This document shows positions 960-29,778 of a stretch of DNA of 44,450 bases, piece after piece. The notes under the pieces are model-generated. The model saw only the letters and a program-made list of their open reading frames with translations, had not been told where the DNA came from and searched no databases. Numbering within the stretch: position 1 is the first letter of the stretch; every line of letters starts with the position of its first letter. This DNA is from Candidatus Sulfotelmatobacter sp. (GTDB lineage: Bacteria; Acidobacteriota; Terriglobia; Terriglobales; Acidobacteriaceae): positions 1 through 44,450 of the forward strand of contig JASHNU010000044.1 of the NCBI GenBank assembly GCA_030041475.1. The letters are read 5' to 3'. A program made the position numbers and the translations under genes.

Positions 960-2870
960 TTGCGGCGACGAGTTACATCCATTAAGCTCGTCCCGTTGAG
1001 TACACTGAACCACAGCACGAATCTTCACGGTTTACCGCTACGGCCAGTGCGCTTCTTCTCGCCCGATGTCGAGCTGACCCGCCGACCCGACGACAGCTTG
1101 CTGATGCGGTCCGTTGAACCCCTGGGCGATTACGACCGTCGCGTGGGAGATTGGCTGGACCGCTGGGCGCGGGAGGCGCCAAATCGCATCTTCATCGTCG
1201 AGCAGAGCCAAACTGGAGAGCGGTGTATCTCTTACGGCGAAGCTCGGGAATCGGTGCTGCTCCTGGCCGAGGGATTGCTCGGCTATGGGCTGGGCGCAGA
1301 GCGGCCCCTCGCCATTCTCGCGGCGAATGGGATTGATCACGCGCTCATCATGTTGGCCGCGCTTTACGTCGGCATCCCCATTGCTCCTGTCGCTCCTGCC
1401 TATGCCCTGCAGTCCAGCGATTACGCGAAGCTGTCCTATGCTTTTGAGTTGTTAACACCCGGAATGGTCGTGGTTGATGATGGAGCGCTTTATCGCCAAC
1501 CGCTTGAACACGCTCTCCAGTCGAACACTCCATTGATAGCTCTTCGGAATGCCTCGGCATCCCCGAACATGCGGGATCTGGCGTCGCTCAAGGGTGATGG
1601 CAGTCATCGCAATGCAGTGCGCGAAGCGGCAGAGCGAGTCGGTCGGGAAACGATTGCCAAGTTTCTGTTTACCTCCGGCTCGACCGGCATGCCAAAAGCT
1701 GTCATCAACACTCACGGCATGATTTGCTGCAACTCCCAGATGAAGCGGCAAGTGGCGCCGTGCCTGGAGGAAGAGCCGCCAGTGATGGTAGATTGGGCTC
1801 CCTGGAACCACACCGCAGGCAGCAACAGCAACTTCAGCATTATTCTTCACAATGGCGGCACCCTGTATGTCGATCCGGGGAAACCCACTGCGGCGCTGTT
1901 TGGCGCAAGTCTCGAGTTACTACGCCGGGTATCGCCGACCATCTACTTCAACGTGCCGCGCGGCTACGAACTGTTGATCCCTCACCTGGAGGCCGACCGG
2001 GCGTTTCGCAAGCAGTTTTTTTCACGGCTGAAGTTTCTCTGGTATGCAGCGGCGTCGATGCAGCCGGCGACTTGGTTCGATCTTGAACGGCTGGCTGTGG
2101 AAACGGTTGGGCACAGGATCTTAACCGTGAGCGGCCTGGGTATGACCGAGACGGCACCCATTGCACTCTTCGGCAACGTGAAGGCAAGTGGCCCCGGAGT
2201 CGTCGGGATACCAGTCGCAGGCGTCGAACTTAAGCTCATCCCGGAGGACAACAGCTTCGAGGTGCGCTATCGAGGCCCAAACGTTACTCCGGGCTACTGG
2301 CGCGATCCTGCGGCAACCGCGGCTGCTTTCGATGAGGAAGGCTTCCTGCGCTCCGGGGATCTGCTTAGTTTTATTGATGCGCAACGGCCACAGGCCGGTC
2401 TTCGCTTCGATGGCAGGATCAATGAAGTTTTCAAGCTTGACTCGGGCACTAAAGTCAGCGCCGGCAAGTTGCGCCTGGATGCGCTGGACGTGCTGCGGCC
2501 GCTGGCCATTGAAATTGTTGTCGCGGGAGCCGACCGTAAGGATGTGCGCATTCTTGTCTTTCCCGACTGGGAGGTATGCGCCGCCGCCGCCGGTCTGGAT
2601 CGCGCGGCCAACCCTGCACAGATCGCCTCCCACCCGACCGTCAGGGCGATGTTTCACGAACGCGTCGCCAAACTGTACGCCGCCGGCACCGGCAGTTCCA
2701 ACCGCATCGTAGCTGCCTTGCTAGTCGACGCCCCGCCCTCCAGCGCAGCTGGCGAGCTAACCGAGAAAGGCACGGTGAACAGTCGCGCCCTGCAGCGGAA
2801 CCGGCCCGAGCTTCTCGACGCTTTGTTCGGAGATGAAGATGGGCGAGTGCTGCGCATGGAAGGCGCTTAG
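960..2870 (+). CDS. fcs: Feruloyl-CoA synthetase (AMP-forming, hydroxycinnamate-CoA ligase)
   Basis: A 636-residue ANL-superfamily ligase. It activates ferulate, and probably p-coumarate or caffeate, to the CoA thioester with ATP, giving AMP and PPi in the cytoplasm. The P-loop FLFTSGSTGMPK is at about residues 234-246. The acyl-adenylate motif GLGMTETAP, the hinge region around GEGFLRSGDL-like sequence, and the C-terminal GRINEVFKLDSGTKV (about 485-499) follow. That last motif is typical of the feruloyl-CoA synthetase branch rather than long-chain ligases. Length fits the family (about 620). The start is uncertain: TTG at 960 lacks a ribosome binding site, and TTG at 996 or GTG at 1047 would fit the family N-terminus (LPLRPVRFFSPDVE) as well. 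It is divergent from the MarR gene and convergent with the hydratase/dehydrogenase gene, which probably acts next on its product. Confidence 0.88.
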   Translation: MRRRVTSIKLVPLSTLNHSTNLHGLPLRPVRFFSPDVELTRRPDDSLLMRSVEPLGDYDRRVGDWLDRWAREAPNRIFIVEQSQTGERCISYGEARESVLLLAEGLLGYGLGAERPLAILAANGIDHALIMLAALYVGIPIAPVAPAYALQSSDYAKLSYAFELLTPGMVVVDDGALYRQPLEHALQSNTPLIALRNASASPNMRDLASLKGDGSHRNAVREAAERVGRETIAKFLFTSGSTGMPKAVINTHGMICCNSQMKRQVAPCLEEEPPVMVDWAPWNHTAGSNSNFSIILHNGGTLYVDPGKPTAALFGASLELLRRVSPTIYFNVPRGYELLIPHLEADRAFRKQFFSRLKFLWYAAASMQPATWFDLERLAVETVGHRILTVSGLGMTETAPIALFGNVKASGPGVVGIPVAGVELKLIPEDNSFEVRYRGPNVTPGYWRDPAATAAAFDEEGFLRSGDLLSFIDAQRPQAGLRFDGRINEVFKLDSGTKVSAGKLRLDALDVLRPLAIEIVVAGADRKDVRILVFPDWEVCAAAAGLDRAANPAQIASHPTVRAMFHERVAKLYAAGTGSSNRIVAALLVDAPPSSAAGELTEKGTVNSRALQRNRPELLDALFGDEDGRVLRMEGA

Positions 2871-2918
2871 ATTTCGATCCGGGCATGCGTAAACCCGATC
2901 GTCAAAGCGCACAGGTCG

Positions 2919-5039
2919 CTACCGCGGTGCGGAGGCCCGGTCCCACTGTTCGAAGCTTGTGCCCGCAGAAGCCAGGCGCTCGATCAACGTGGCAGGGCGC
3001 CAGTAATAAACCAGCTTTTCGTGATAGTGGCGAATCCGTTGCAACACCTCGGAAAGTCCCAGCGTATCGGCGTAAAACATCGGCCCGCCAAGGTGGCGTG
3101 GGAATCCGTAACCGCTCGTCCAAACCACATCAATATCGGCAGCGCGTGCCGCGATTCCTTCTTCCAGAACCATTGCGCCGACATTGATCAGCGCCAGAAT
3201 GCATCGCTCGACGATCTCCTCATTGCCAATTTCGTGCCGCGATATACCTCTCTCGAACGCAAGCTTCTCGATAAGGTTGTTCACTTCAGGATCTGGCATG
3301 GCCTCGCGGCTGCCATTTTCATAACAGTAGAAACCGCGACCGGTCTTCTGGCCGAGCTTCCCCATTTCTGTAAGGCGGTCGGCGATGACGAAATAAGGGT
3401 CAGGACGCTTTTCCCGCTTGAAAAGCTGGACGCGTGCTTTGGTGCCCACATCGTTGCCGCCCAGGTCGCTTACCCGTTGCGGCCCCATCGCAAAGCCGAA
3501 ATTCTCGAGCGCCGTGTCCACCTGTATCGGTGTGGCTCCTTCCAGCAGCAACTGCTCGGCCTCACGAAAGTAGCCATCGAGCATCATCCGATTCCCGATG
3601 AAACCGAAGGCGTCGCGCGAAACAACCGCAACCTTCTTGAGGAGTTTTGCGACGCAGAATGCTGTTGACAGGCTTTCAGGTGAGCTATGGTCGGTGCGCA
3701 CAATCTCCAAAAGCCTCGAGGCTTGTGCGGGAACGAAGAAATGCAGCCCCAATACGCGCCCCGGATGCGCCGTGGCGCGGGCGAGTTCGCTGACAGAAAG
3801 AGTGGAGGTGTTAGTGGCGATCAGGCGCTGGGGCGGAAGGACGGAGTCGAGCTTCGATAATACGTCTTTCTTCAACTCCCTATCCTCAAATACAGCCTCG
3901 ATAACGAGATCGGCATCCGCTACATCGGCCAGGGTGCGGGCATTCCGAATACGCCGAATGCGTTCATCGGCGACGTTCTGATGAATGCGGCCGCGTCGCA
4001 CGCCTGATGCGTACGTTGAATGAATACGTTCACGGCTGCGGATGAGGGAAGCAGGATCGTTGTCGTTGAGCAGCACTTCCAGGCCGGCGTCGGCGAAAGC
4101 AATCGCGATGCCGCTGCCCATCGTACCCGCGCCGATCACCGCCACCCGGTGGATCGCCGGCGACAGCGTTCGCTTGGCCTCGACTGCGGATACTCCACTC
4201 GATTTCCCTGACTCGCGCTCCGCAAAGAATACGTGCCGAAGTGCCAGGCTCTCGCGTGACGCCAACGACTTCTGTGCAAGAGCGGCCTCTATTGCGATAC
4301 CTTGCGAGAACGGCAGCTTGGAAGCTTTGATTGCTTCTATGACCAGCTCCTGCGTCGTGCGCCCCTTCAAAGCACGAGCATGAGGAAGCAGTGCAGAAGC
4401 AATCTCTGCTTCATCGAGGCCGTCAGTAACCGTGCGGCTGCACGTTGGGCGCGGGCCGAGCCCCTCCTGTACAAGACGTTCACAAAAAAATAGCCCCGCA
4501 TTACGCAGATCGTCTTCCGCAACCTCATCCACCAGCCCTTTGGTCTTGGCTTCAGGTGCCGAAATAGGTGTCCCGGACAGAATCATATTCAAAGCAGCGC
4601 GTGCGCCGATCAGCCTTGGGAGGCGTTGCGTCCCCCCCGCGCCCGGAATGATGCCCAGCGTGATCTCCGGCATTCCGAGTTTTGCGTCTTTATGAGCGAG
4701 GCGATAGTGACAGGCCATTGCCAGTTCGAGTCCTCCGCCTAAGGCAAGTCCGTGTATCGCGGCGACCACTGGAATTGGAAAGGCCTCCAGTGCGGCCTGC
4801 ACTTGTTGGAGAGAGGGCTCGCCCTCCGGGCGATCGAACTCAGTGATATCAGCGCCCGCGCTGAACGGCGAGCCCTCCGACATAATTAGCAGCGCTTTGA
4901 TGCCAGGGTTCTTCTCCGCCCGCGCAACCACATCAGCGAGCGCGAGCCGTACGGAATGGCTAATCGCGTTCACGGGAGGGTTGTCGATGCAAATCAGCCC
5001 TACAGGACCTAGCTGATTGAAGGTCACGGTTCTTGCCAC
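2919..5039 (-). CDS. Enoyl-CoA hydratase / 3-hydroxyacyl-CoA dehydrogenase fusion
   Basis: A 706-residue bifunctional beta-oxidation enzyme of FadJ/FadB-alpha type. The N-terminal crotonase domain (about 1-190) has the oxyanion-hole segments SAGADITEF and HGLALGGGLELAMA and the catalytic glutamate region MPEITLGIIPGAGGTQR. The dehydrogenase domain starts near residue 295 with the NAD motif VIGAGTMGSGIA, has HFFVPA with the catalytic histidine, and ends with two C-terminal dehydrogenase lobes (FIGNRMM; TGRGFYCYENG). I chose GTG at 5039 because GGAG lies eight bases upstream; a TTG at 5063 adds eight residues. It faces fcs tail to tail. It would hydrate feruloyl-CoA and oxidise it to the beta-keto thioester. 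General fatty-acid oxidation is the alternative role. Confidence 0.88.
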   Translation of the reverse strand: MARTVTFNQLGPVGLICIDNPPVNAISHSVRLALADVVARAEKNPGIKALLIMSEGSPFSAGADITEFDRPEGEPSLQQVQAALEAFPIPVVAAIHGLALGGGLELAMACHYRLAHKDAKLGMPEITLGIIPGAGGTQRLPRLIGARAALNMILSGTPISAPEAKTKGLVDEVAEDDLRNAGLFFCERLVQEGLGPRPTCSRTVTDGLDEAEIASALLPHARALKGRTTQELVIEAIKASKLPFSQGIAIEAALAQKSLASRESLALRHVFFAERESGKSSGVSAVEAKRTLSPAIHRVAVIGAGTMGSGIAIAFADAGLEVLLNDNDPASLIRSRERIHSTYASGVRRGRIHQNVADERIRRIRNARTLADVADADLVIEAVFEDRELKKDVLSKLDSVLPPQRLIATNTSTLSVSELARATAHPGRVLGLHFFVPAQASRLLEIVRTDHSSPESLSTAFCVAKLLKKVAVVSRDAFGFIGNRMMLDGYFREAEQLLLEGATPIQVDTALENFGFAMGPQRVSDLGGNDVGTKARVQLFKREKRPDPYFVIADRLTEMGKLGQKTGRGFYCYENGSREAMPDPEVNNLIEKLAFERGISRHEIGNEEIVERCILALINVGAMVLEEGIAARAADIDVVWTSGYGFPRHLGGPMFYADTLGLSEVLQRIRHYHEKLVYYWRPATLIERLASAGTSFEQWDRASAPR

Positions 5040-5133
5040 TGCTATCGCTCCGTTCGTTTTCAAAATATGAGACGACGCAAGGTTCGCTGATCGGAGACTT
5101 GGCTCTTTCTCTCTGCAGGCTCCGAATTCTTAA

Positions 5134-5165
5134 TGTATACAAGACATTGCAATGTTCCGTATACT
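5134..5165. promoter_or_regulatory. Dyad operator (TGTATACA) overlapping the ligM-1 promoter
   Basis: Two GTATAC sites (5135-5140 and 5159-5164) lie exactly symmetrically around the 12-bp perfect palindrome ACATTGCAATGT (5144-5155); all three share the centre 5149.5 as a nested dyad. Read as a promoter on the plus strand, TATACA (5136-5141) and TATACT (5160-5165) are an acceptable -35/-10 pair with an 18-base spacer, so a bound repressor would cover the promoter core. The motif recurs before the metF-like gene, the GntR gene and ligM-2. The gap is shared with the divergent hydratase/dehydrogenase gene. Confidence 0.5.
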
Positions 5166-5204
5166 GAACGTCGCCTTGCCTACATTCTCGCACCGGGGGC
5201 TGAG

Positions 5205-6602
5205 ATGAAACAGAAGAGCCTGGAAGATCTGCTGCAGAGCGTGGGAAACCCGGTAAAGATGCTGCGCAATTCGCAGATTGGTGCTTACATCTATCCGGTT
5301 GTTCCTTACGAGTACTCCAACTGGCGCGATGAACAACTGGCTTGGCGTGAGACCGCGGTTCTGTTCGACCAGTCGCACCATATGGCGAACATTTACGTCG
5401 AAGGCCCGGATGCGTTGAGAATGCTCTCCTATCTCGCAACCAACAGTTTCGCGAACTTCCCCGTCAATCGAGCCAAACAATTCGCACCATGCAGCTACGA
5501 CGGTTATGTCATCGGCGACGGCATTCTTTTTCATCTGGAAGAAAACCGCCTCGTTTTCGTGGGGCGCGCCCCGGCCGCAAACTGGATTCAATTTCACGCT
5601 GAAACCGGCGGTTATGACATCAAAATCGAGAAGGACGACAGGTCCCCTTCCAATCCGAAAGGCAAAGCAGTTTTTCGGACCTGTTACCGCTTCCAGATTC
5701 AAGGCCCGAATGCGCCGCAGGTCCTGGAAAAGCTGAACCGGGGGCCGGTCCCGGAGATCAAGTTCTTTCACATGGATGCGATCAAAATTGCCGGGCGAAG
5801 AGTCCGCGCGTTGCGCCACGGCATGGCTGGCGCTCCTGGCCTGGAGGTATGGGGGCCGTATGAAGAGCGCGAGGAGATTCGTGCGGCCATCGTTGACGCC
5901 GGCAGAGATTTTGGCCTTCGCGAAGTCGGAGCCAGAGCCTACGCGACCAACACGCTGGAGTCGGGATGGATTCCATCCCCGCTTCCTGCCGTCTACTCCA
6001 GCGAACGGATGAAAGCCTACAGGCAATGGCTGCCCGCCGCGAGCTATGAGGGAACGGGTTCCCTCGGTGGCAGTTTCGAGTCCGATGACATCGAGGACTA
6101 TTACATGTCCCCGTATGCTCTGGGTTACGGGCCGTTCGTCAAATTCGACCACGATTTCATCGGAAGAGAAGCACTCGAGAAAATGGCCGGTCGACCGCAG
6201 AGGAGAAAGGTCACCTTCGCCTGGAACGCCGAGGATGTCTTGAGGGTGTTTGCATCGATGTTTGAATCGGGCGAGATGTCTAAGTATATCGATCTGCCGC
6301 TGTCGAATTACGCGTCTGCCTCGTACGACAAGGTGCTATTGGGAGCGAAGACTGTCGGGTTCTCCATGTTCGGGGGTTACAGCTATAACGAGCGCTCAAT
6401 GCTCTCTCTGGGGGTTGTTGATCCGGACATTGAGACCGGCGCCGAAGTCAGGATTGTGTGGGGCGAAGGGGGAGGCGGCACCCGAAAGACGACCGTAGAA
6501 AGGCACAAACAAACGGAGATTCGGGCCATCGTCAGCCCGGTGCCTTATTCGAAAGTCGTACGCGAGACCTATGCGAAGGGATGGCGTACGGCTCAAGGGT
6601 GA
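5205..6602 (+). CDS. ligM: Tetrahydrofolate-dependent aromatic O-demethylase (LigM/DesA type), copy 1
   Basis: A 465-residue protein of the GcvT-fold O-demethylase group, close in length to Sphingobium LigM (about 471). It moves the methyl group of vanillate, 3-O-methylgallate or syringate to THF, giving 5-methyl-THF and the free phenol. The N-terminus NSQIGAYIYPVV, FDQSHHM, GRAPAANW and ARAYATNTLESGW are characteristic. Tyr30, His59, Arg121 and Tyr246 align, one position shifted, with the LigM residues I recall as catalytic (Tyr31, His60, Arg122, Tyr247). ATG at 5205 fits the family N-terminus and has a G-rich ribosome binding site; an upstream in-frame ATG at 5133 falls inside the operator. 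It is convergent with the metF-like gene (10-base overlap), which regenerates the cofactor. Whether it acts on vanillate or syringate cannot be read from sequence. Confidence 0.9.
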   Translation: MKQKSLEDLLQSVGNPVKMLRNSQIGAYIYPVVPYEYSNWRDEQLAWRETAVLFDQSHHMANIYVEGPDALRMLSYLATNSFANFPVNRAKQFAPCSYDGYVIGDGILFHLEENRLVFVGRAPAANWIQFHAETGGYDIKIEKDDRSPSNPKGKAVFRTCYRFQIQGPNAPQVLEKLNRGPVPEIKFFHMDAIKIAGRRVRALRHGMAGAPGLEVWGPYEEREEIRAAIVDAGRDFGLREVGARAYATNTLESGWIPSPLPAVYSSERMKAYRQWLPAASYEGTGSLGGSFESDDIEDYYMSPYALGYGPFVKFDHDFIGREALEKMAGRPQRRKVTFAWNAEDVLRVFASMFESGEMSKYIDLPLSNYASASYDKVLLGAKTVGFSMFGGYSYNERSMLSLGVVDPDIETGAEVRIVWGEGGGGTRKTTVERHKQTEIRAIVSPVPYSKVVRETYAKGWRTAQG

Positions 6603-7486
6603 GCAGACAATGTCTTCAATGACCGTTCGGCATCAATCCAATCCATAGTTCGTTGAAGGCCGCCAAAAATGTAAAAGTGCAGACCTGCAATCCCGAGCAG
6701 CTGGCCACCACCGTCCGCAATGGAAGCAGCAAGCCCCTTGATAATCGGTTCAGGGCCTCTTTCAACCAGAACCTTCGCGAACGACGGGTTTTCGCTCAGC
6801 ACCCGCAACGAGTTGCCTATGCCGCAGCGCACCGCATAGCGCATGAGGGTTAGCAAACCAGCCGGGCCGGCCAATCCCACTCGTATCGGAACATCGATGC
6901 CGCGTGCTCGCACTCCTCTCACCCATTCGATCACGGGTTCGGATTTGAAACAGAATTGCGTGATGATCAAGAGTCGCAGCCCTTCCCGCCGCGCGAAATT
7001 TACTTTCGCCTCAAGTGCCTCATTCAAGACTGTCTCAGGAATGTGAGGATTGCCCTCGGGAAAACCGCCGATCGCCACGCGAAATATGCCGGCTTTTTGA
7101 AACACGCCAGTTTGCATTACCGATAGGCTGCTGTCATATGGTCCCGCGGGTAGGTGACGGTCGCCGCCTATGATCAGAATCCGATCCGCCCCCACATCGC
7201 GCAAGTGCTCCGCCAGCCGCTGGAGTTGGGCGCCGCTCTCCAGATGACGCGCGGCCACATGCGGCATGGGGAGATGACCGGCGCGTTTCAACGTTGCCGC
7301 CGGCGCGATCATGTCCATTGGATTCGAGCTGGGAATCCAGGCCAGGGACACTTCGGTGCCCGGATCCAGACGCTCTGCCGCCATCTCTACGGTCTTCGCG
7401 TCGCCCGGATTCAGCTCAATCGAGTAATTGCGCAGAAGTTTGGTAATGCCCGGCGAAGCGGTTGCCGCGTCTGTAGGAAGCATCAT
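6593..7486 (-). CDS. metF: Methylenetetrahydrofolate reductase (MetF-like)
   Basis: A 297-residue TIM-barrel flavoprotein of the MTHFR family. Recognisable segments are HVAAR, ADRILIIGGD, GIFRVAIGGFPEGNP, ITQFCFK and RVGLAGPAG, ending with GLHFYIFGG. The family interconverts 5-methyl-THF and 5,10-methylene-THF with FAD and NAD(P)H. Next to a LigM gene, the expected direction is oxidation of the methyl-THF made by O-demethylation; a ligM-metF pairing is known in Sphingobium SYK-6. No ligH-type formyl-THF enzyme is in the window. The start is the first of two adjacent ATG codons (7486, 7483). There is no ribosome binding site because a perfect GTATAC palindrome ends two bases upstream, so the mRNA may be leaderless. 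It is divergent from the ring-cleavage operon. Confidence 0.88.
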   Translation of the reverse strand: MMLPTDAATASPGITKLLRNYSIELNPGDAKTVEMAAERLDPGTEVSLAWIPSSNPMDMIAPAATLKRAGHLPMPHVAARHLESGAQLQRLAEHLRDVGADRILIIGGDRHLPAGPYDSSLSVMQTGVFQKAGIFRVAIGGFPEGNPHIPETVLNEALEAKVNFARREGLRLLIITQFCFKSEPVIEWVRGVRARGIDVPIRVGLAGPAGLLTLMRYAVRCGIGNSLRVLSENPSFAKVLVERGPEPIIKGLAASIADGGGQLLGIAGLHFYIFGGLQRTMDWIDAERSLKTLSAHP

Positions 7487-7487: not shown

Positions 7488-7501
7488 TTCAGTATACTGA
7501 A
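7488..7501. promoter_or_regulatory. Perfect palindromic operator TTCAGTATACTGAA at the metF-like start
   Basis: A 14-bp perfect palindrome abutting the metF-like start codon. Its right arm, GTATACTGAAC, is identical to the arm of the ligM-1 operator at 5159-5169. On the minus strand TATACT (7496-7491) could be a -10 element, which would put the transcript start at about the ATG. The site lies in the gap shared with the divergent dioxygenase operon and could control both. Confidence 0.5.
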
Positions 7502-7759: not shown

Positions 7760-8728
7760 GTGCAAAAAGAACCGGTAATGGATGTTGCTCATCTCGGCCA
7801 TTTAGAATTGCTCACTCCCAAGCCGGAAGAGAGCCTGCGGTTTTTTGTCCAGGTTATGGGGATGACCGAGAGCGGCCGGCAAGGCGATTCGGTTTACTTG
7901 CACGCCTATGATGATTACGAGCGGCATTCCCTGAAGCTCACTGCCTCGAAACTCCCGGGCTTGGGCCACGTAGCTTATCGCGCACGAAGCCCCCAGGCTC
8001 TCGAACGCCGGGTTGCGGTCCTCAAGGGATCAGGCTTCGACATAGGATGGACGGAGGGCGATTTGGGGCATGGCCCGGCGTTTCTTTGCCAGGATCCGGA
8101 CGGACATCGAATCGAGCTGTATTACGAAACCGAGTGGTATCAGGCACCGCCAGAGTTGCGGCCTGCGCTCAAGAACCAGGCGCAGAAATTTCCAGCGCGT
8201 GGCATCAACGTGCGGCGCCTCGATCACTGGAATGGACTTGCGGTCGATATCAAAGCCAACCGCGAGTTCTTCGAAAACTACCTGGGCTTTCGCCTGACCG
8301 AGCAGATTGTCTTGGATGATGAATCGGAAGCTGCGATCTGGATGACGTGCACAAACAAGAGCTACGACTTCGCCTACACGCGCGACCACACAGGCACGAA
8401 GGGGCGCTTGCACCACATCACTTATGCCGTCAATAGTCGGGAAGAGGTTCTTCTTGCCGCGGATATTTGCCTGGAAAATGGCGTGTACATTGAAACCGGT
8501 CCTCATAAGCACGCAATTCAGCAAACCTTCTTCTTATACGTATACGAGCCCGGAGGCAACCGCGTTGAGATTGCCAATGCGGGGGCGCGTCTGATCCTGG
8601 CGCCGGATTGGAAGCCGATCCGATGGAGCGAAGCCGAACGCAAGAAAGGACAAGCTTGGGGACTGAAGACGATCGAATCGTTCCATACCTACGGCACACC
8701 CCCAGTGGAGGCGGCACGCAAGATGTGA
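7760..8728 (+). CDS. Type I extradiol ring-cleavage dioxygenase (VOC fold)
   Basis: A 322-residue two-domain vicinal-oxygen-chelate dioxygenase of the catechol 2,3-dioxygenase type (about 310 residues usual). The N-terminal non-catalytic domain starts with HLGHLELLTPKPEES. The C-terminal domain carries the Fe(II) triad: His156 in LDHWNG, His218 or His219 in RLHHITYAV and Glu270 in GNRVEIANAG, spaced as in XylE and BphC. GTG at 7760 is preferred because AAGGGG lies five bases upstream; ATG at 7778 is the alternative. It is first in an operon whose next three genes process 4-oxalomesaconate, so the substrate is probably gallate, 3-O-methylgallate or protocatechuate. In the described gallate and protocatechuate 4,5 pathways this step belongs to LigAB/GalA enzymes, which have an unrelated fold. 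Substrate is inferred. Confidence 0.85.
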   Translation: MQKEPVMDVAHLGHLELLTPKPEESLRFFVQVMGMTESGRQGDSVYLHAYDDYERHSLKLTASKLPGLGHVAYRARSPQALERRVAVLKGSGFDIGWTEGDLGHGPAFLCQDPDGHRIELYYETEWYQAPPELRPALKNQAQKFPARGINVRRLDHWNGLAVDIKANREFFENYLGFRLTEQIVLDDESEAAIWMTCTNKSYDFAYTRDHTGTKGRLHHITYAVNSREEVLLAADICLENGVYIETGPHKHAIQQTFFLYVYEPGGNRVEIANAGARLILAPDWKPIRWSEAERKKGQAWGLKTIESFHTYGTPPVEAARKM

Positions 8729-8830: not shown

Positions 8831-9550
8831 GTGACCGGTCCAAAAACAGCGATGGTCGTAAGCGCCCATTCGGCGGATTTTGTGTGGCGAGCAGGCGGGG
8901 CGATCGCGTTGTATACCGAACGCGGCTGGGAGGTCACTGTCATTTGTCTGTCGTTCGGGGAGCGCGGCGAGTCGGCGAAGCTCTGGCGCGAGCCGGGAAT
9001 GACGATGGACAAAGTTAAAGCCAACAGAAAGGAAGAAGCGACTCGGGCGGCGGAAATTCTCGGAGCTAAGGTAATTTTCTTCGATGTGGGTGACTATCCC
9101 ATGAGAATTCCGGACGGCAGTCTCTACGAACTGGCTGCGCTCTACCGAAGGATCCGGCCCGAGTTTGTCCTCACGCACTCCCTCAAAGATCCTTACAATT
9201 TTGATCATCCGCTCGTTTCTCGGGCTGCGCAGGAAGCGCGCATCGTTGCGCAGGCACATGGACATGAACCAGGAACGCCCGTAATCGGCGCACCGCCCGT
9301 ATTTCTTTTCGAGCCACACCAGCCGGAACAGTGCGAATGGAAGCCGCAGCTGCTACTTGATATCACTCCAGTTTGGCCCAAGAAATATGAGGCCTTCAAA
9401 GCCATGAATGCCCAGGAGCACCTCTGGCATTACTACGAGCGGGTCGCTCTGCAGCGCGGCGCGCAGGCCTCGCGCAACTCCAATAAGACGATCAAATACG
9501 GAGAGGCGTATCAGCGCGTCTTTCCACAAGTTGCGGAGGAGCTTGCATGA
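8831..9550 (+). CDS. galB: 4-Oxalomesaconate hydratase, GalB-like (PIG-L/LmbE family)
   Basis: A 239-residue PIG-L/LmbE-fold protein. The metal-binding segment reads [15 protein letters not shown] instead of the AHPDDE of deacetylases. I recall this substitution as the mark of GalB, the zinc hydratase that converts 4-oxalomesaconate to 4-carboxy-4-hydroxy-2-oxoadipate in Pseudomonas gallate catabolism. Other family segments are [22 protein letters not shown] with the second histidine ligand region, and [15 protein letters not shown]. The GTG start at 8831 has no strong ribosome binding site; ATG at 8852 would remove part of the first strand. It lies 102 bases after the dioxygenase gene and overlaps the aldolase gene by four bases (ATGA), indicating translational coupling. 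Confidence 0.83.
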
Positions 9551-10224
9551 ACCAACCTGTCGTGGTCCGCAACGTGGAGCAACCCCCAGCGGAAGTCGTG
9601 GCTGCCTTGGAGAAATTCGGTGTGACCACCGTGCATGAGGCGCAAGGACGATGTGGTTTACTCGCCTGCTACATGCGCCCTATTTTTCCCGGCGCGACCA
9701 TAGCGGGCCCTGCTGTAACCGTGTCGCTTCCTCCGGGCGACAACCTGATGATCCACGTTGCTGTCGAAGTGTGCCAGGCCGGAAATATCCTTGTGGTGGC
9801 TCCGACTTCAACCTGCACTGACGGTTATTTCGGCGAGTTGCTGGCGACGTCGCTGCGTGCCCACGGAGCCAAAGGATTTGTGGTTGATGCCGGTTGTCGC
9901 GACATTCGCGCCCTGACGGAGATGAAATTTCCCGTCTGGAGCCGCGCGATCAGTTCGCAGGGAACAGTCAAAAGCACACTGGGATCGGTGAACGTTCCGG
10001 TCGTCTGTGCGGGCGCACTGGTGGAAGCTGGTGATGTGATTGTCGCAGATGATGACGGAGTCGTCGTAGTGAGGCGAAGTGCGGTGCGCGAAGTGGCCTC
10101 GGCGGCTGAACAACGGGCTCGCAAGGAAGATGCAAATCGAGAGCGGCTTGCGCGCGGTGAACTCGGCCTTGACATCTACGGCTTGCGCAAGAAGATCGCC
10201 GAACTGGGGCTTAAGTACATCTAA
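9547..10224 (+). CDS. ligK: 4-Carboxy-4-hydroxy-2-oxoadipate aldolase, LigK/GalC type (RraA-like)
   Basis: A 225-residue protein of the RraA-like class II aldolase family. It cleaves 4-carboxy-4-hydroxy-2-oxoadipate to pyruvate and oxaloacetate, and many homologues also act on 4-hydroxy-4-methyl-2-oxoglutarate or decarboxylate oxaloacetate. The diagnostic block is [21 protein letters not shown] followed by CRD, which holds the arginine/aspartate pair for pyruvate enolate and Mg2+ binding (about residues 97-119). [14 protein letters not shown] is the conserved C-terminal strand pair. The start overlaps the galB-like stop (ATGA), and the next gene begins nine bases after its stop. It is the last step of the gallate/protocatechuate 4,5 route. 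Confidence 0.88.
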
Positions 10225-10233
10225 GAGGACTTA

Positions 10234-11379
10234 ATGTCGCGGGCATCGCAAACCGCCATCCCGTGCACGCTGATGCGCGGCGGCACGTCTAAAGGACCTT
10301 TCTTTCTGGCGAGCGATCTGCCAAGCGATGTCCAGACTCGAGACCGTGTATTACTGGCTGCGATGGGATCTCCCGACGTCAGGCAAATCGATGGCGTTGG
10401 CGGAGCAGACCCTCTGACCAGCAAAGTGGCAATCGTATCCCGTTCTTCGCGCGCTGGAATTGATGTGGATTATCTCTTTGTCCAGGTTTCCGTGGATCAG
10501 CCCCTTGTCGATGTCACTCCAACATGTGGAAACATGCTGGCGGGCGTCGGCCCTTTTGCCATTGAGCGCGGCCTGGTTGCGCCCGGGGATCCAATCACAC
10601 CCATCACGATTTATATGGTGAACACAGGAACGGTAGCAGTTGCCCACGTGCCCACGCCGGGCCGCGAAGTGACCTACGCAGGGGACACATCGATTGCCGG
10701 GGTCCCTGGTACGGCGGCCGCGATCCGCATCGACTTCCGCGATACAGCTGGTTCAGTCTGTGGGGCTCTGTTGCCGACCGGCAACACGCTCGACCGGTTC
10801 GATGGAATCGAAGCAACATTGATTGACAACGGCATGCCCATGGTTGTACTGCGAGCCTCGGATTTTGGGAAATCCGGGTACGAGACCCCTGCTGAGCTTA
10901 GCTCCGATCAGAAACTCAAAGCGCGTCTGGAAGCCATTCGTATCCTGGCGGGCGAGCGCATGGGCTTGGGCGACGTGCGTTCGAAGGTCGTTCCCAAGAT
11001 GACTCTGATCGCGCCGCCCCAAGGCGGCGGGCACGTAATGACCCGCACTTTTATTCCACACAAATGTCACGCCGCCATCGGAGTCTTGATGGCGGTTACG
11101 GTGGGCACGGCGTGTATTCTTCCCCGGTCAGTCGCGCATGACATCGTGCACCTGCAAGATGGACCAGAGCAACGGCTCTCGATTCAGCATCCCAGTGGCG
11201 AATTTTCGGTGGAATTTCAGTTGCAGCAAACCGGCGGGATGCTGAAAGTGATCCGCTCGAGCCTGATTCGAACCGCTCGTGCGCTTTTTCGAGGCGAGAT
11301 CCTGGTGCCGGCAAGCGTTTGGGTGAGGCAGGACCCCCTCCCGTCAAAGGATGTTTCGCGGACCGTGCAGCATGCCTAG
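10234..11379 (+). CDS. galD: 4-Oxalomesaconate tautomerase, GalD/LigU-like (PrpF family)
   Basis: A 381-residue PrpF-family isomerase with two diaminopimelate-epimerase-like halves. RGGTSKGPFFLASDLP at the N-terminus, DPLTSKVAIVSR, and TPTCGNMLAGVGPFAIERG with the active-site cysteine are family signatures. PKMTLIAPP is in the second half. In gallate catabolism GalD converts the enol of 4-oxalomesaconate to its keto form before GalB; LigU is a related double-bond isomerase. Aconitate isomerase (PrpF proper) is the alternative, but neighbours on both sides favour the aromatic pathway. It is tightly packed in the operon (nine bases after ligK; its stop overlaps the next gene). Confidence 0.86.
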   Translation: MSRASQTAIPCTLMRGGTSKGPFFLASDLPSDVQTRDRVLLAAMGSPDVRQIDGVGGADPLTSKVAIVSRSSRAGIDVDYLFVQVSVDQPLVDVTPTCGNMLAGVGPFAIERGLVAPGDPITPITIYMVNTGTVAVAHVPTPGREVTYAGDTSIAGVPGTAAAIRIDFRDTAGSVCGALLPTGNTLDRFDGIEATLIDNGMPMVVLRASDFGKSGYETPAELSSDQKLKARLEAIRILAGERMGLGDVRSKVVPKMTLIAPPQGGGHVMTRTFIPHKCHAAIGVLMAVTVGTACILPRSVAHDIVHLQDGPEQRLSIQHPSGEFSVEFQLQQTGGMLKVIRSSLIRTARALFRGEILVPASVWVRQDPLPSKDVSRTVQHA

Positions 11380-12298
11380 CGCGAACACCATTCATCGGGT
11401 GGCGATCGTCGGCTTTGGCGAAGCCGGAGGTATTTTCGCGAAAGATCTCGCGGTCGCGGGCATGGATGTTGTTGTTTTTGACATTCTGTTCAACTCCAGT
11501 CGACAGCGAAAACGAATGCTGAATAAAGCGCAAGCCTGCGGAGTTACGGCCGCACGCAGTTTGAAAGATTGTCTGAACAAGGCCGAACTGGTGATTTCAG
11601 CCGTTACCGCCTCATCGGCATTGGAGGTGGCGAAAGAGGCGGGGACGATTCTTGGCGTGGGGCAGCTATTTCTTGACATCAATTCGGTTTCGCCTGCAAC
11701 CAAGTGCACCGCTGCCAGCTACGTCGTGCGAAAGGGAGCGCGATTCGTTGAGGCTGCCGTGATCTCTGCGGTCCCCAAACAACGATTGCAGGTTCCAATG
11801 CTGCTTGGCGGACCGCATGCATTCGAGACCGCCGAATGCCTGCAGAGGATTGGAATGAACGCTACGCCGTTAAGTGATCAACTGGGCATCGCTTCGGCAG
11901 TCAAGATGTGCCGGAGCGTCATCATCAAAGGCTTGGAAGCGCTTGTCGTCGAGTCTTTATTCGCAGCGCGGATGTATGGCGCAGAAGACAAGGTACTGGA
12001 GTCTTTGGCCGCGAGTTTTCCGGGAATGGGGTGGAAGGATCATTTGCCTGATTACTTGATTAGCCGTGTGGCCGAACATGGCCGTCGACGAGCTGTGGAA
12101 ATGCGCGAAGTAGCGCAGACACTGCAGCATGTTGGCATCGAACCCATGATGGCGCTGGCGACATCTCAACGCCAGAAGCAACTCGTCGGCGAGATGGCCA
12201 AGCGGAGAGTTGCGTTCGATTCTGCCGCGCAGTTCTCCTGGCGTTCTCTCGGTGATGCGGTGGTCCGCCCGCGACGCCGATCCGGATCAGGCAAGTGA
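11372..12298 (+). CDS. NAD(P)-dependent dehydrogenase with DUF1932 C-terminal domain
   Basis: A 308-residue protein with an N-terminal Rossmann fold of the 6-phosphogluconate/3-hydroxyisobutyrate dehydrogenase type (RVAIVGFGEAGGIFAKDL near residue 10) and a DUF1932-type helical C-terminus (KMCRSVIIKGLEALVVESL; residues about 180-275). I chose ATG at 11372, which overlaps the tautomerase stop by eight bases; ATG at 11351 would add seven residues. It is last in the ring-cleavage operon. No described step of the gallate route needs a dehydrogenase. It could oxidise a semialdehyde or hemiacetal if protocatechuate is cleaved, replacing LigC, but this is only inferred. After it comes the convergent GntR gene, 52 bases away. 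Confidence 0.8.
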   Translation: MPSANTIHRVAIVGFGEAGGIFAKDLAVAGMDVVVFDILFNSSRQRKRMLNKAQACGVTAARSLKDCLNKAELVISAVTASSALEVAKEAGTILGVGQLFLDINSVSPATKCTAASYVVRKGARFVEAAVISAVPKQRLQVPMLLGGPHAFETAECLQRIGMNATPLSDQLGIASAVKMCRSVIIKGLEALVVESLFAARMYGAEDKVLESLAASFPGMGWKDHLPDYLISRVAEHGRRRAVEMREVAQTLQHVGIEPMMALATSQRQKQLVGEMAKRRVAFDSAAQFSWRSLGDAVVRPRRRSGSGK

Positions 12299-12350: not shown

Positions 12351-13070
12351 TTAACGGTCCAGAGCTGAGATTTCCGCAGTCTCTCCCGCCGGTCGCAATC
12401 CCGCGCGCGAAAGATTGATGCTTACCTTTGCCCCGTGCGCGTGCTCGACCATCAGGGCGGCCACTCGAGAGCTCTCACCGTTTTCCAGCGCCTGAACGAT
12501 CGCGTGATGCTGGCGGTGCGAGTAGAGCAGGTGGTCGTACATTCGCGGGAGGTCAATCTTGTCGAACGCGATCGCATGCGCCGCCGCGAACGGGATTCGG
12601 CCGTTGCGCTCTAGCGCCTCGGCCACCACTTTGCTTCCGGATCCCTGCACGATCAGGGAATGGAATTGCTTATTCATGTCGCCGTAGCGAGCTTCGTCCG
12701 CCAGGGCAAGGTGCCCCTTGGCAAAGATTTCATCTCCGTCACGGAGACACTCATGCAGCGAGTGAATGAGGCGCCGGGATGGCCCTTGTTCCGCCAACAT
12801 ACGAGCCGCCAGGCCTTCGAGCGCGCCACGGACGTCAATCGCATCCATGATTTCCTGAGCCGTAAATGCCCTTACAACAAAACCACGAGTATCGAGCTGA
12901 GTCAGTACGCCTTCCTGCGCCAGGATCGGTAGAGCCTCACGCACTGGCGTTCGGGAAACCCCAAGCTTGGCCGCAAGTTCGACCTCTCTCACTCGCTCGC
13001 CCGGAGGCAGTTCCCCGTGCAGGATCATTTCACGTATTCTTACGATTACCCGCGAGTTCTTACCGGCCAT
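12351..13070 (-). CDS. GntR-family regulator with FCD domain (FadR/VanR subfamily)
   Basis: A 239-residue regulator. The N-terminal winged helix (about 1-70) shows the GntR pattern RIREMILHGELPPGERVREVELAAKLGVSRTPVREAL-like, split here by position rather than quoted whole. The FCD ligand domain (about 75-215) includes DVRGALEGLAARML, the metal/ligand-binding Asp/His positions in DMNKQFHSLIV, and the last histidine pair in YSHRQHHAIVQAL. FCD regulators include VanR, which controls vanillate catabolism in several bacteria. The gene lies centrally among the catabolic genes. Its start is flanked by TGTATGCA sites, and TGTATRCA recurs before both ligM genes and metF. That recurrence supports autoregulation and control of the O-demethylation genes, most simply as a repressor relieved by an aromatic acid. 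Confidence 0.9.
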   Translation of the reverse strand: MAGKNSRVIVRIREMILHGELPPGERVREVELAAKLGVSRTPVREALPILAQEGVLTQLDTRGFVVRAFTAQEIMDAIDVRGALEGLAARMLAEQGPSRRLIHSLHECLRDGDEIFAKGHLALADEARYGDMNKQFHSLIVQGSGSKVVAEALERNGRIPFAAAHAIAFDKIDLPRMYDHLLYSHRQHHAIVQALENGESSRVAALMVEHAHGAKVSINLSRAGLRPAGETAEISALDR

Positions 13071-13120: not shown

Positions 13121-13582
13121 TTCTATTTGAACTCTCGCGAGGAGGAAACCCATAAGACTCGACAGAGGCTGGGCTCCCGACAGGCTAGGGTGATCGAGTC
13201 ATCTCCGCCGCCTGGTGTCCTGACCGGATTCAGGCGAATTGCAGTAAGAACGCGAAAATTCTCAATCGCGGACGAAGATAGAGTGGCCTCTAGGACTGAG
13301 GTGGCATATGCATACAACATTATGCAACGCTGCAACTTCTAAGCCGAGATACCTTCCGAGCTCAGACGCCCGCACGACGGCGAAATCACTTCACCTCAAT
13401 GCTGAAGCGCTCTTTACCGTGAGTCTCAGGAATGGAGACGATCGTGCCTGCCTAGCCTTGACTGTATACATCGCGGTCGTTAAGAATGCATTCGTTTAAG
13501 ATACGTATGCAGGTTGGCCTACCGGAAGACAGGGGCTGCGTACTACGGAGGCGAACAGAATTCGCGATGCTGGGAGTTGCCG
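13121..13582. promoter_or_regulatory. Long upstream region of ligM-2 with further TGTATRCA sites
   Basis: No supported gene lies between the GntR start and ligM-2; short frames here lack family features. The region holds TGCATACA (13309-13316) inside overlapping palindromes GCATATGC and TATGCATA. Near ligM-2 are TGTATACA (13463-13470), the perfect palindrome GAATGCATTC (13484-13493) and CGTATGCA (13504-13511). A possible promoter is TTGACT (13458-13463) with AAGAAT 18 bases further on, which would place TGTATACA between the -35 and -10 boxes. Confidence 0.45.
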
Positions 13583-14977
13583 ATGCAGAACACGAGCTTG
13601 GAAGATGTGTTACAGGAAATCGGAAATCCTCTGACGCTGCTGCGCAATTCCCAGACTGGGCCGTATGTGTATCCGGTAGTTCCAAGCGAATTCTCGAACT
13701 GGAGAGATGAGCAGCTTGCCTGGCAACAAACCTGTGTCCTATACAACCAGTCCTACCACATGACCGATATGTACGTGCGAGGCCCTGATGCATTGAGACT
13801 GCTTTCCGGGTTGGGCGTGAATAGCTTCCAAGGCTTTGAACCAGACAAAGCGAAACAGTTTGTTGCATGCAATCACGACGGGCATGTGATCGGCGATGTC
13901 ATTTTGTTTTACCTTGAAAAGGACCTGTTCAACTTGGTTGGCCGCCCGTCGGTTCACAATTGGGTTCAGTATCACGCCGAGATCGGCCACTATGATGTGA
14001 AACTCGAAAGGGATGAGAGATCCGTCGCCAGGCCGGGGCCAATCACCCGCAAGGCTTACCGGTATCAGGTGCAGGGCCCTCATGCGATGAAGCTCATCGA
14101 AGAAGTGACGGGCAAGCCTGCGCCCGCGCTCAAATTCTTCCATATGACCACGGTGGTGATCGCCGGGCACAAGGTTCGCGCCTTGCGTCATGGAATGGCG
14201 GGACAGCCTGGGCTGGAGTTGTTCGGCCCGTGGAACGAAGGGAAAGCCGTCAAAGCAGCAATCGTTGAAGCGGGGAAGGAATTTGGGCTTCGGCAGGTCG
14301 GGGCGAGAGCATACTCATCCAATACCCTCGAGTCCGGCTGGATCCCTTCACCCATGCCCGCGATCTATTCTGGGGAAAAGATGAAATCGTATCGGCAGTG
14401 GCTGCCGGCAAATAGTTACGAGGCGCTGGCCTCGCTTGGCGGCAGCTTCTATTCTGACAAGATCGAGGACTATTACCTCACGCCCTACGATCTTGGATAT
14501 GGACCCATCATCAAGTTTGATCATGATTTCATCGGACGAGAAGCCCTGGAAAAAATTGCGCACCAGCCCCATCGAAAAAAAGTAACGCTGGCGCTCGACA
14601 GCATCGACGTCACGCACGCCATCAGCACAATGTTTGACAAGAGAAACCGGGCAAAGTATTTCGACTTCCCCTCGGCTGTCTATTGCAGCCTGCCTTACGA
14701 CAAGGTGATGCGAGATGGAGAGCTTGTTGGGATCTCGACCTGGTGCGGCTACAGCGCCAACGAAGTCAAGATGCTCACGTTAGCAATGGTGGACAAAGAA
14801 CACAGCAATCCTGGCACCGAGGTTACGTTTGTCTGGGGAGAGGAAGAAGGAGGTTCGTTGAAGCCTACGGTCGAGCGCCACGTGCAGACGGAGATTCGTG
14901 CCATCGTAAGTCCTGCACCTTATTCCGAAGTTGCCCGCACCACCTACGCTGAAGGCTGGCGTACCGCTCAGAAGTGA
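13583..14977 (+). CDS. Tetrahydrofolate-dependent aromatic O-demethylase (LigM/DesA type), copy 2
   Basis: A 464-residue paralogue of the protein at 5205-6602, alignable end to end. Tyr30, His59, Arg121 (NLVGRPSVHNW) and the tyrosine of ARAYSSNTLESGW (Tyr244) keep the presumed catalytic set. It differs around the active site: FDQSHHM of copy 1 is YNQSYHM here, and GAYIYP is GPYVYP. This suggests a different methoxy substrate. Two paralogues could serve the two consecutive demethylations of syringate (DesA-like, then LigM-like), or vanillate and syringate separately. ATG at 13583 fits the family N-terminus and has GGGAG about eight bases upstream. An alpha/beta hydrolase gene follows after 80 bases on the same strand. 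Confidence 0.88.
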   Translation: MQNTSLEDVLQEIGNPLTLLRNSQTGPYVYPVVPSEFSNWRDEQLAWQQTCVLYNQSYHMTDMYVRGPDALRLLSGLGVNSFQGFEPDKAKQFVACNHDGHVIGDVILFYLEKDLFNLVGRPSVHNWVQYHAEIGHYDVKLERDERSVARPGPITRKAYRYQVQGPHAMKLIEEVTGKPAPALKFFHMTTVVIAGHKVRALRHGMAGQPGLELFGPWNEGKAVKAAIVEAGKEFGLRQVGARAYSSNTLESGWIPSPMPAIYSGEKMKSYRQWLPANSYEALASLGGSFYSDKIEDYYLTPYDLGYGPIIKFDHDFIGREALEKIAHQPHRKKVTLALDSIDVTHAISTMFDKRNRAKYFDFPSAVYCSLPYDKVMRDGELVGISTWCGYSANEVKMLTLAMVDKEHSNPGTEVTFVWGEEEGGSLKPTVERHVQTEIRAIVSPAPYSEVARTTYAEGWRTAQK

Positions 14978-15057
14978 ACTGCCTCCTCGAGTGACAGATT
15001 ATGGGCGGGGCGGAAGAGGGGTTCCGATCAACAACAGATCTGTTCGGGAGGTCATCG

Positions 15058-15777
15058 ATGTCGAACTATGTCTTGGTCCACGGCGCGTGGCGAGGCAGTT
15101 GGATCTGGAAGCATGTCCGAAAGGAGCTTCAGGCGCGTGGACATGAGGTCTTCGCACCCACTTTGACCGGTATTGGCGAGCGCTGCCATCTCCTGTCTCC
15201 GCAAGTCAACCTTGAGACTCACATCGCCGATGTGATCAACCTCATCCGCTGGGAGGAACTGACCGGTGTTGTCTTGTGCGGCCATTCGTACGGGGGATGC
15301 GTAGTAACCAGTGTAGCCGACCGCATTCCGGCCAAGGTCAGTGCGCTGTTCTTTGTCGATGCGTTTGTTCCGGAGAACGGTCAGAGTCTGCACGACACGC
15401 TTCCGCCGGACGCCAGGAACGAACAACTGGAAGCAGCGAAAAACGTTGGGGAAGGCTGGAAAACTCCCCCGATTCCGGCTGAGGCGTTCAACGTTAATCC
15501 CCGGGATCGCGACTGGGTGGACCAGCAGTCCACACCGCATCCCCTGGCATGCTTCCAACAGCCCGCCCGACTCACGGGCGCAATCAACCGCATCGAAGAT
15601 ATTACTTATCTTCTGGCGACCGGCTGGGGCCCTTCACCCTTTCCGCAGTTTTACGACAAGGCGAAAGCCAGGGGATGGAGGACGCTCACCTTGGCATGCG
15701 GTCACGATGTGATGTTGGATCAGCCCGAAGAACTCACTCGGGAACTGCTGGCAATTTCGTCGCGGACCACCCGCTAA
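15058..15777 (+). CDS. Alpha/beta-fold hydrolase (EstP/salicylate-esterase-like)
   Basis: A 239-residue serine hydrolase. YVLVHGAWRGSWIWKHV near the N-terminus gives the oxyanion-hole HG, GHSYGG (about residue 80) holds the nucleophile serine, and CGHDVMLDQPEEL near the C-terminus holds the catalytic histidine. TLTGIGERCHLLSP is typical of the small-esterase group that includes plant methyl-ester esterases and bacterial pyrethroid hydrolases. ATG at 15058 is preferred because GGGAGG lies seven bases upstream; an in-frame ATG at 15001 lacks one. Lying behind ligM-2, it may release aromatic acids from methyl or other simple esters, but the substrate is unknown. It is convergent with the amidohydrolase gene, 57 bases away. 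Confidence 0.8.
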   Translation: MSNYVLVHGAWRGSWIWKHVRKELQARGHEVFAPTLTGIGERCHLLSPQVNLETHIADVINLIRWEELTGVVLCGHSYGGCVVTSVADRIPAKVSALFFVDAFVPENGQSLHDTLPPDARNEQLEAAKNVGEGWKTPPIPAEAFNVNPRDRDWVDQQSTPHPLACFQQPARLTGAINRIEDITYLLATGWGPSPFPQFYDKAKARGWRTLTLACGHDVMLDQPEELTRELLAISSRTTR

Positions 15778-28968: not shown

Positions 28969-29778
28969 ATGGCGAAAACCGATTCTTCCAAAACAATGGA
29001 CCAATACTTCGAGGATCTGCAGCAGACGCGTGTCTGGCGTTCGATTTTTCGCAGCGGCCCCGGATCGAGCACGCTAAAGCGCGCCCTGGCGATCCAGCAG
29101 AACGTATTTCTGCACCTGTTCTCCACCAAGGTGCGGGTACGGGTGCTGAGTTTCAGCGCAACGTGGTACTTGGGGACGCTCACGCTAGGCACGTTTCTGG
29201 TCCTGGTTGCGACCGGTATCCCTCTGATGCTCTATTACCATCCGTCGGTGCCGCAGGCCTATGCGGACACCAAAGACCTGCAGTTCGTCGTCTCCTCCGG
29301 AATGTTTCTTCGCAACCTGCACCGCTGGTCGGCGCATGCCATGGTCTTTCTGGTATTCGCGCACATGTTCAAGGTGTTCTATCGCGGAGCGTATCGCACG
29401 CCACGGGAATTCAACTGGGTCATCGGCGTAATTCTTCTTCTCATCACTCTGTTGCTGAGCTACACCGGTTATTTGCTCCCCTGGGATCAACTGGCTTATT
29501 GGGCGATCACGGTCGGTTCGAACATTGCATCCGCAGTGCCGCTGATCGGAAACAAGATTCACTTTCTCCTGCTGGGCGGCAACGCTGTGAACGCCAATGC
29601 TCTGCTCCGCTTTTACGTGCTGCACTGCATGATTCTGCCGCTGACTGCGATGTTCTTTGTCGCAATTCATTTCTGGCGGATTCGCAAGGATGGCGGCCTC
29701 TATTCCCACGGGAGTGAACCGGCGACGATGAAGGCCGCGACCGCAAACGTCGCTGCCGCTGCGAAGGAGGCGCGTTAA
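28969..29778 (+). CDS. Cytochrome b, N-terminal part (b6-like), heme-binding subunit
   Basis: A 269-residue membrane protein equivalent to cytochrome b6. The heme histidines are in [17 protein letters not shown] (13 residues between the first and last) and [17 protein letters not shown] (14 residues between), a spacing like b6. [13 protein letters not shown] is the Qo-site helix region. An N-terminal cytoplasmic segment of about 60 residues precedes the first helix. The stop TAA overlaps the ATG of the next gene by one base (TAATG). The split cytochrome b points to a b6f-like or menaquinol-type complex rather than mitochondrial-like bc1. Confidence 0.93.

Follow-up and report, generated by a model that had tools for sequence, protein, structure and literature searches.

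Gene cluster of the window

We analysed a stretch of 44,450 nucleotides from Candidatus Sulfotelmatobacter sp., a member of the Acidobacteriota, referred to here as the window. The genes that concern us encode a putative ring-cleaving dioxygenase of the VOC fold, enzymes of 4-oxalomesaconate (OMA) conversion, O-demethylases and several neighbours:

5133-6602, plus strand: ligM, LigM-type H4folate-dependent vanillate/3-O-methylgallate O-demethylase (NF047885, 754.9 bits, cut-off 580); the start may be near 5205
6593-7486, minus strand: mthfr, methylenetetrahydrofolate-reductase-like, a weak match (PF02219, E 9e-6), divergent from the VOC gene
7760-8728, plus strand: VOC (type I) extradiol dioxygenase of 322 aa, proposed gallate/3-O-methylgallate ring-cleaver (profile, PDB and predicted-structure comparison)
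8831-9550, plus strand: galB, GalB-type 4-oxalomesaconate hydratase of the PIG-L fold (PF02585; 5cgz, E 6.9e-105)
9547-10224, plus strand: ligK, LigK/GalC 4-carboxy-4-hydroxy-2-oxoadipate aldolase (TIGR02798 over cut-off; 3noj)
10234-11379, plus strand: galD, GalD/LigU 4-oxalomesaconate tautomerase/isomerase (NF033377 over cut-off; 6p3j, E 6.2e-127)
11351-12298, plus strand: NAD-binding DUF1932 protein (Pfam scan); the true start may be 11372 or later
12351-13070, minus strand: GntR/FCD regulator, candidate regulator of the cluster (profile matches)
13514-14977, plus strand: desA, DesA-like syringate O-demethylase (NF047633, 797.3 bits, cut-off 800); the start may be near 13583
15001-15777, plus strand: alpha/beta hydrolase behind desA (PF12697)
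16680-17867, minus strand: pcaDC fusion (NF051488, 458.6 bits, cut-off 390)
17871-19229, minus strand: a gene which we take to be pcaB-like

The sequence-only reading had placed the VOC gene at the head of an operon of OMA enzymes, and the genes for GalB, LigK and GalD indeed follow it in a row on the same strand (8831-11379). The gap between the VOC gene and galB is 102 bp, galB and ligK overlap by 4 bases and ligK and galD are 9 bp apart; the five genes from the VOC gene to the DUF1932 gene likely form one operon. The DUF1932 gene recurs near VOC genes in Acidobacteriota and Alphaproteobacteria, and comparison of its product with the PDB gave no informative solved relative. The DesA-like protein scores 2.7 bits below the DesA cut-off and also exceeds that of LigM (652.8 versus 580 bits), and its assignment as DesA rather than LigM is not certain. 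From its position and its pairing with desA, which is also seen at loci L010 and L012, the alpha/beta hydrolase is a candidate esterase for the methyl ester that cleavage of 3-O-methylgallate would give. The mthfr-like protein is a plausible C1 partner of the demethylases. Acyl-CoA synthetase-like and FadB/FadJ-like genes and an Amidohydro_2 protein flank the demethylases (960-5063 and 15835-16608); they presumably represent a hydroxycinnamate (ferulate, sinapate) side-chain route that would feed vanillate and syringate into the cluster. Further off, cytochrome b-like and multi-CxxCH cytochrome c-like ORFs recognised by eye (28969-33287) look like a respiratory cluster with no tie to the present finding.

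Palindromes containing GTATAC lie at three places around these genes:

5134-5141: TGTATACA palindrome, which precedes ligM provided the gene starts near 5205, with a second GTATAC at 5159
7488-7501: TTCAGTATACTGAA palindrome at the start of the gap between mthfr and the VOC gene, a candidate shared operator
13463-13470: TGTATACA palindrome in front of desA

The motif GTATAC occurs seven times in the window against 1.8 expected, a count not reached in 100 shuffles, and three of the seven sites fall within genes elsewhere. Among eight loci with a like arrangement, six (L008, L009, L010, L012, L013 and L014) carry GTATAC in front of ligM or desA or in the mthfr/VOC gap, and none was found at these places in L007 or L011. 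Totals across the like loci are not above chance overall and only the placing is informative; through these boxes, ligM, the VOC gap and desA may be under common control.

The VOC protein and its active site

Two stretches of the VOC protein match PF00903 in the Pfam scan, as in a two-domain VOC fold, and its predicted structure matches 3lm4, AphC, XylE and homoprotocatechuate 2,3-dioxygenase (HPCD) over 285-298 residues. The 2-His-1-carboxylate triad is present as H156, H219 and E270 and was aligned in all 230 clade sequences, which bears out the earlier claim of a VOC-fold extradiol dioxygenase with an intact His-His-Glu triad. The residues discussed below are encoded on the plus strand as follows:

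8225-8227, plus strand: codon of Fe ligand His156 (HPCD His155; alignment, 230 of 230 clade sequences)
8363-8365, plus strand: codon of Tyr202, at the place of the catalytic second-sphere His200 of HPCD (alignment)
8414-8416, plus strand: codon of Fe ligand His219 (HPCD His214; alignment with HPCD)
8495-8506, plus strand: codons 246-249 with the signature pair Thr246 and His249, at HPCD Arg243 and Gly246 (alignment)
8567-8569, plus strand: codon of Fe ligand Glu270 (HPCD Glu267; alignment with HPCD)

His200 of HPCD is a catalytic residue, and its E, Q, N and C variants are named in PDB titles. At this position the window protein has Tyr202 instead of the second-sphere acid-base His typical of type I enzymes, a residue on which membership does not depend, and thereby differs from 3lm4/AphC, 3hpv and HPCD, all with His, and resembles 9wgj and its kin. 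This exchange was overlooked in the sequence-only reading. Tyr was found in 228 of the 230 clade sequences, the exceptions being one Leu and one Cys, the latter at L013, which has the window-type operon. In the type II enzyme DesB, His192 is named in the accessible part of the source as the catalytic His and counterpart of that of BphC, and a His192Phe mutant is mentioned (PMC3962378). The best 120 relatives of 9wgj, mostly Bacillota where named and some Ktedonobacteria, have Tyr in 119 cases; it is therefore a trait of a wider subfamily, and Tyr202 was rejected as a mark of a gallate clade.

A pair of further positions sets the clade apart from most of the 9wgj set. HPCD Arg243, which we take to be a carboxylate ligand, corresponds to Thr246; Thr or Ser stands there in 229 of 230 clade sequences, and His stands at the HPCD Gly246 position in all 230, versus Phe (106/120) and Ser or Gly (112/120) in the best 120 relatives of 9wgj. 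His of the pair occurs in five of those 120, and the four most window-like of the five are 64-77% identical to the window protein. Both residues are also present at L108 and L109, each beside OMA genes. The pair Thr246/His249 is a likely substrate-specificity mark of the OMA-linked clade; we infer the roles of Tyr202 and of this pair. A tree built from 49 chosen rows requires one change of the Thr/His label, with a branch support of 40/96 and some long-branch rows, and does not establish a single, well-supported origin for the clade that bears the pair. HPCD shares fold and triad with the window protein and shows that the VOC fold can bind a carboxylate-bearing catechol; it differs in that Arg243 is replaced by Thr246 and His200 by Tyr202, and the position of cleavage relative to the carboxylate would also be expected to differ.

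Source records, where they name clade members, label them 'catechol 2,3-dioxygenase', and we know of no activity for any member of the clade. In the Pfam scan at E 0.001 only Glyoxalase families were matched and the LigB domain (PF02900) was absent; in NCBIfam the protein misses the cut-off of the HpaD model TIGR02295 (197.2 versus 321.4 bits). It passes that of the catechol 2,3-dioxygenase model TIGR03211 (345.4 versus 320.2 bits), and its nearest solved relative, 9wgj (55% identity), has the sequence of a protein from Geobacillus zalihae that bears the name catechol 2,3-dioxygenase. Both observations would suit an ordinary catechol or pyrogallol 2,3-dioxygenase sitting in the operon by chance, with gallate opened by PcaHG; since gallate is symmetrical, intradiol cleavage would give the same OMA. 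Thr246 and His249, unlike the residues of most of the 9wgj set, argue against it. The entry 9wgj itself was deposited as a catechol 1,2-dioxygenase, its sequence being like type I catechol 2,3-dioxygenases, and our literature search found no publication on it. BLC23O was considered as a characterised relative and set aside, no activity on protocatechuate or pyrogallol being reported in the accessible part of its source (PMC8671467).

A LigAB/GalA homologue elsewhere in the genome had been named as evidence that would speak against replacement; this candidate was rejected, as a search for the LigB family (PF02900) in the window's own 4.63-Mb assembly, 99.56% complete, gave zero matches at E 0.001, the same search giving matches in 4 of 14 control genomes. 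The genome does hold two adjacent intradiol genes on contig C105, read as pcaHG (two PF00775 matches). This pair is what an opening of gallate by PcaHG would need, and together with pcaDC and the pcaB-like gene it means that protocatechuate has a separate intradiol route. We consider the VOC protein to be probably the ring-cleaver of gallate and/or 3-O-methylgallate, by its sequence and context a non-orthologous replacement of the type II enzymes LigAB/DesB/GalA.

Linkage to OMA genes and alternation with LigB

A genome scan for VOC loci yielded at least 80, of which the best 80 (78-95% identity) were analysed. Neighbour genes were called by codon scoring, which drops some real genes, e.g. mthfr in L008 and L010 (found by tblastn), and the neighbour counts in the 80 loci are therefore lower bounds. 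In at least 29 of the best 80 loci, the VOC gene has galB, ligK or galD as a neighbour less than 7 kb away (at least 10 of 20 in Acidobacteriota and at least 19 of 60 in others), and ligM was found at no fewer than 9 of the 20 acidobacterial loci. No OMA gene was seen within 7 kb at 51 of the best 80, an upper figure, 33 of them representing one Bradyrhizobium arrangement (within L037-L085) with the VOC gene flanked on one side by a HerA/DUF87 gene and on the other by a MoCoBD/cytochrome c gene. Measured in five genomes with this arrangement, the distance from the VOC gene to ligK was about 24-26 kb: a module of LigI-like, galB, ligK, decarboxylase-like and DUF1932 genes is situated about 24 kb from it in B. 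barranii (G042), and the ligK-VOC distance is 24-26 kb in four further genomes of the Bradyrhizobium-type family.

Three linked arrangements recur. The first, ligM-VOC-galB-ligK-galD as in the window, was found at L007-L014, some with genes lost at contig ends. The second comprises LigI-like, galB, ligK, 4,5-dihydroxyphthalate-decarboxylase-like and VOC genes (Tardiphaga and part of Bradyrhizobium), and the third VOC, alpha/beta hydrolase, LigJ-type hydratase, ligK, SnoaL and DUF1932 genes (L018). LigJ-type hydratases are present at L018 (2gwg, E 1.6e-69) and L108 (E 2.8e-162); as LigJ, an amidohydrolase, and GalB, of the PIG-L fold, are unrelated and serve one step, linkage follows the reaction and not one gene family. 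In another acidobacterium (G297), TetR (by eye), galD, LigI-like, galB, ligK and VOC genes stand in a row on one strand, ligK and the VOC gene sharing a base; the three marker positions of its VOC protein, which is 59% identical to that of the window, are occupied by Tyr, Thr and His. The window clade is set apart, by its frequent place beside OMA genes, from known type I catechol 2,3-dioxygenases (TIGR03211: XylE/C23O; AphC of Rhodococcus jostii RHA1; 9wgj). Linkage to OMA genes that recurs in both phyla, and with hydratases of two unrelated kinds, is hard to reconcile with chance placement of a catechol or pyrogallol enzyme; furthermore, the neighbour families scanned, covering part of the neighbours, included alpha/beta hydrolases and a class II aldolase but no semialdehyde dehydrogenase. 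We regard chance placement as very improbable.

Several further observations were made at these loci. NCBIfam gave no name for the L018 amidohydrolase or the 4,5-dihydroxyphthalate-decarboxylase-like gene, both of which were named by PDB comparison; the latter (9jp7, E 2.6e-18; L032:9045-9848) and like genes form cluster c16, found at 14 loci and often between ligK and the VOC gene. Upstream of the OMA genes of G297 (L143:9459-13843), HpcH-type aldolase-like, iron alcohol dehydrogenase-like and PdxA-like ORFs were seen by eye, perhaps more of an aromatic pathway. A cobalamin-independent methionine-synthase-like protein is encoded near the VOC gene at L019:15296-16456 (PF01717), L023, L029, L030, L045 and L084 and, by eye, L108, and is possibly a methyl acceptor for demethylation. 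L041, from a record titled Frankia sp. RB7, has a Bradyrhizobium neighbourhood and a VOC protein about 80% identical; probably the label is wrong or the assembly mixed.

The arrangements also bear on which substrate is opened. Within the preferred reading, 3-O-methylgallate rather than gallate could be the main substrate, made by DesA and opened by the VOC enzyme to the methyl ester, from which the alpha/beta hydrolase would free OMA. Such a route without gallate is described for Novosphingobium in the accessible part of one source (PMC6888825), desA is paired with the hydrolase in the window, L010 and L012, and a 2-pyrone-4,6-dicarboxylate (PDC) hydrolase (LigI-like) accompanies the VOC gene in G297 and part of the alphaproteobacterial loci. 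Against this, the gallate-making ligM is nearer and more constant than desA, and L011 and L013 have ligM, VOC, galB, ligK and galD with neither desA nor such a hydrolase in the stretch read; we therefore hold it to be the minor, rather unlikely share of the reading. A type I protocatechuate 4,5-dioxygenase, with the DUF1932 protein oxidising the semialdehyde and LigI-like hydrolases continuing to OMA, would explain the recurrence of DUF1932 near VOC genes and the LigI-like and 4,5-dihydroxyphthalate-decarboxylase-like genes of alphaproteobacterial loci, and LigM yields protocatechuate too, according to the part of the source available (PMC6888825). It is at odds with the intradiol route of the window genome (PF00775 pair, pcaDC), with the window operon, where no LigI-like gene was recognised, and with the many linked loci that show no DUF1932 nearby. 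Protocatechuate is thus less likely as substrate than gallate or 3-O-methylgallate, and we rate such a 4,5-enzyme as improbable.

Returning to gallate-type cleavage, we compared the distribution of the VOC protein with those of LigK and LigB (PF02900). Among 43 genomes picked from the best 80 loci, a choice that favours linked loci, LigK was present in 42 at 1e-30 (38 over the cut-off) and PF02900 in 24 at 0.001 (23 over the cut-off). Eight genomes carry the window-type operon; seven lack a PF02900 match, and the eighth, G004, has one below the cut-off. PF02900 is likewise absent from 9 of 16 non-acidobacterial genomes with galB and ligK near the VOC gene; the other seven have at least one match elsewhere. 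In the Acidobacteriota G011 and G015-G018, LigB lies within 100 bp of LigK and the VOC gene away from it, and the VOC protein is therefore not the sole ring-cleaver there.

In an even sample of the phylum (396 genomes), LigK was found at 1e-70 in six. Two of these have the VOC gene near LigK, namely G297 (68 bp) and G000 (one gene between), with no PF02900 match at 1e-15 and, in G000, none at 0.001 either; the other four have LigB near LigK (G301, G367 and G464 at 37-48 bp, G489 at 1.2 kb) and no VOC at 1e-70. At these thresholds VOC and LigB were never found together in the six. If the window's own genome is set aside, the co-occurrence in the sample comes down to one genome (p 0.025). VOC without LigK was seen in G330 and G430 (47-48% identity, canonical His) and in G544 (68%), which has no LigK at 1e-70 and a VOC gene adjoining a LigJ gene (E 2.8e-162). 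Within the window's own family the VOC gene is rare, with 1 of 150 sampled genomes carrying it and G297, from another sample, as a second case; gene transfer may be the reason.

The second sample comprised 179 genomes of the Bradyrhizobium-type family of G030, with statistics that ignore kinship. VOC (at least 65% identity) was found in 54, LigK in 69 and PF02900 (1e-8) in 94. Of the 179, 44 carry both LigK and VOC, 25 only LigK, 10 only VOC and 100 neither one, which gives an odds ratio of 17.6 (p 1.2e-14); put otherwise, VOC occurs in 44 of 69 genomes with LigK versus 10 of 110 without. Where both occur, the VOC gene lies within 7 kb of LigK in 28 of 44 genomes. Among LigK-bearing genomes, PF02900 was present in 20 of 44 with VOC versus 19 of 25 without (p 0.02, kinship ignored), and 6 of 69 have neither. 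VOC and LigB thus mostly alternate at the place near LigK and are seldom together there, in two phyla. We read this as a recurrent replacement of LigAB/GalA, a stronger result than the sequence-only reading had stated.

Proposed reaction and its significance

Demethylation of syringate by DesA and LigM would yield 3-O-methylgallate and gallate, two neighbouring hydroxyls of which would be bound at Fe(II) by the VOC enzyme and the bond next to the third oxygen cut. XylE-type enzymes cleave 3-substituted catechols next to the 3-substituent, and it is because of this chemistry and of the symmetry of gallate that the OMA enol or its methyl ester is the expected product. Gallate would give the enol of OMA directly and 3-O-methylgallate the methyl ester or PDC, which GalD, GalB and LigK would then take on to pyruvate and oxaloacetate. 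Substrate, regiochemistry, product and metal of the enzyme are what we infer from this context; the genomic case for gallate-type cleavage as a whole is strong, though short of proof.

The proposed step and its partners (LigM, DesA, GalB or LigJ, GalD/LigU and LigK) are those of the type II enzymes DesB, GalA, DesZ and LigAB (PF02900), whose fold is unrelated; the VOC enzyme would be their functional analogue and not a member. PraA, the protocatechuate 2,3-dioxygenase of Paenibacillus JJ-1b, is possibly, we assume, of VOC fold. Likened to the window enzyme by description only, in the accessible part of the source, it also opens a carboxylated catechol in extradiol fashion, but its 2,3-cleavage leads to a different product, 5-CHMS (PMC13254512). 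For the partners DesA, LigM, DesB, LigU, LigJ and LigK there is precedent in SYK-6, with alternative 3-O-methylgallate routes (PMC6888825, in part). That characterised pathways open gallate with type II enzymes, as the sequence-only reading held, agrees with AromaDeg, which in the available text puts gallate dioxygenases under the LigB superfamily and names neither gallate nor protocatechuate as a VOC substrate, in a list that closes with 'among others' (PMC4250580). A paper on Rhodopseudomonas hypothesises, in its accessible part, a pmd 4,5-route for gallate (PMC12366328). Our search of the mainly open-access literature, partly as excerpts and with subscription papers mostly outside its scope, found no VOC-fold gallate, 3-O-methylgallate or protocatechuate-4,5 enzyme, in keeping with the suggestion of a possibly undescribed type.

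On balance, and with somewhat less assurance than for the window protein itself, we favour the view that the widespread VOC clade is a family of type I gallate/3-O-methylgallate dioxygenases, with Tyr for the second-sphere His and a Thr-His substrate signature, which in Acidobacteriota and in Alphaproteobacteria of the Bradyrhizobium type took the place of type II enzymes. Gallate-type ring opening is a key step in the use of syringyl lignin, and annotation based on LigAB/DesB/GalA would score such organisms as pathway-negative and label their enzyme as a catechol dioxygenase. If the view is correct, it would provide a clean case of two unrelated folds for one step and a natural change at a much-studied extradiol acid-base residue. 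Moreover, an important step of lignin breakdown would prove to be solved in a new way in some soil Acidobacteriota and relatives of Bradyrhizobium, and a gap would be filled in models of how soil Acidobacteriota and rhizobia use lignin carbon.
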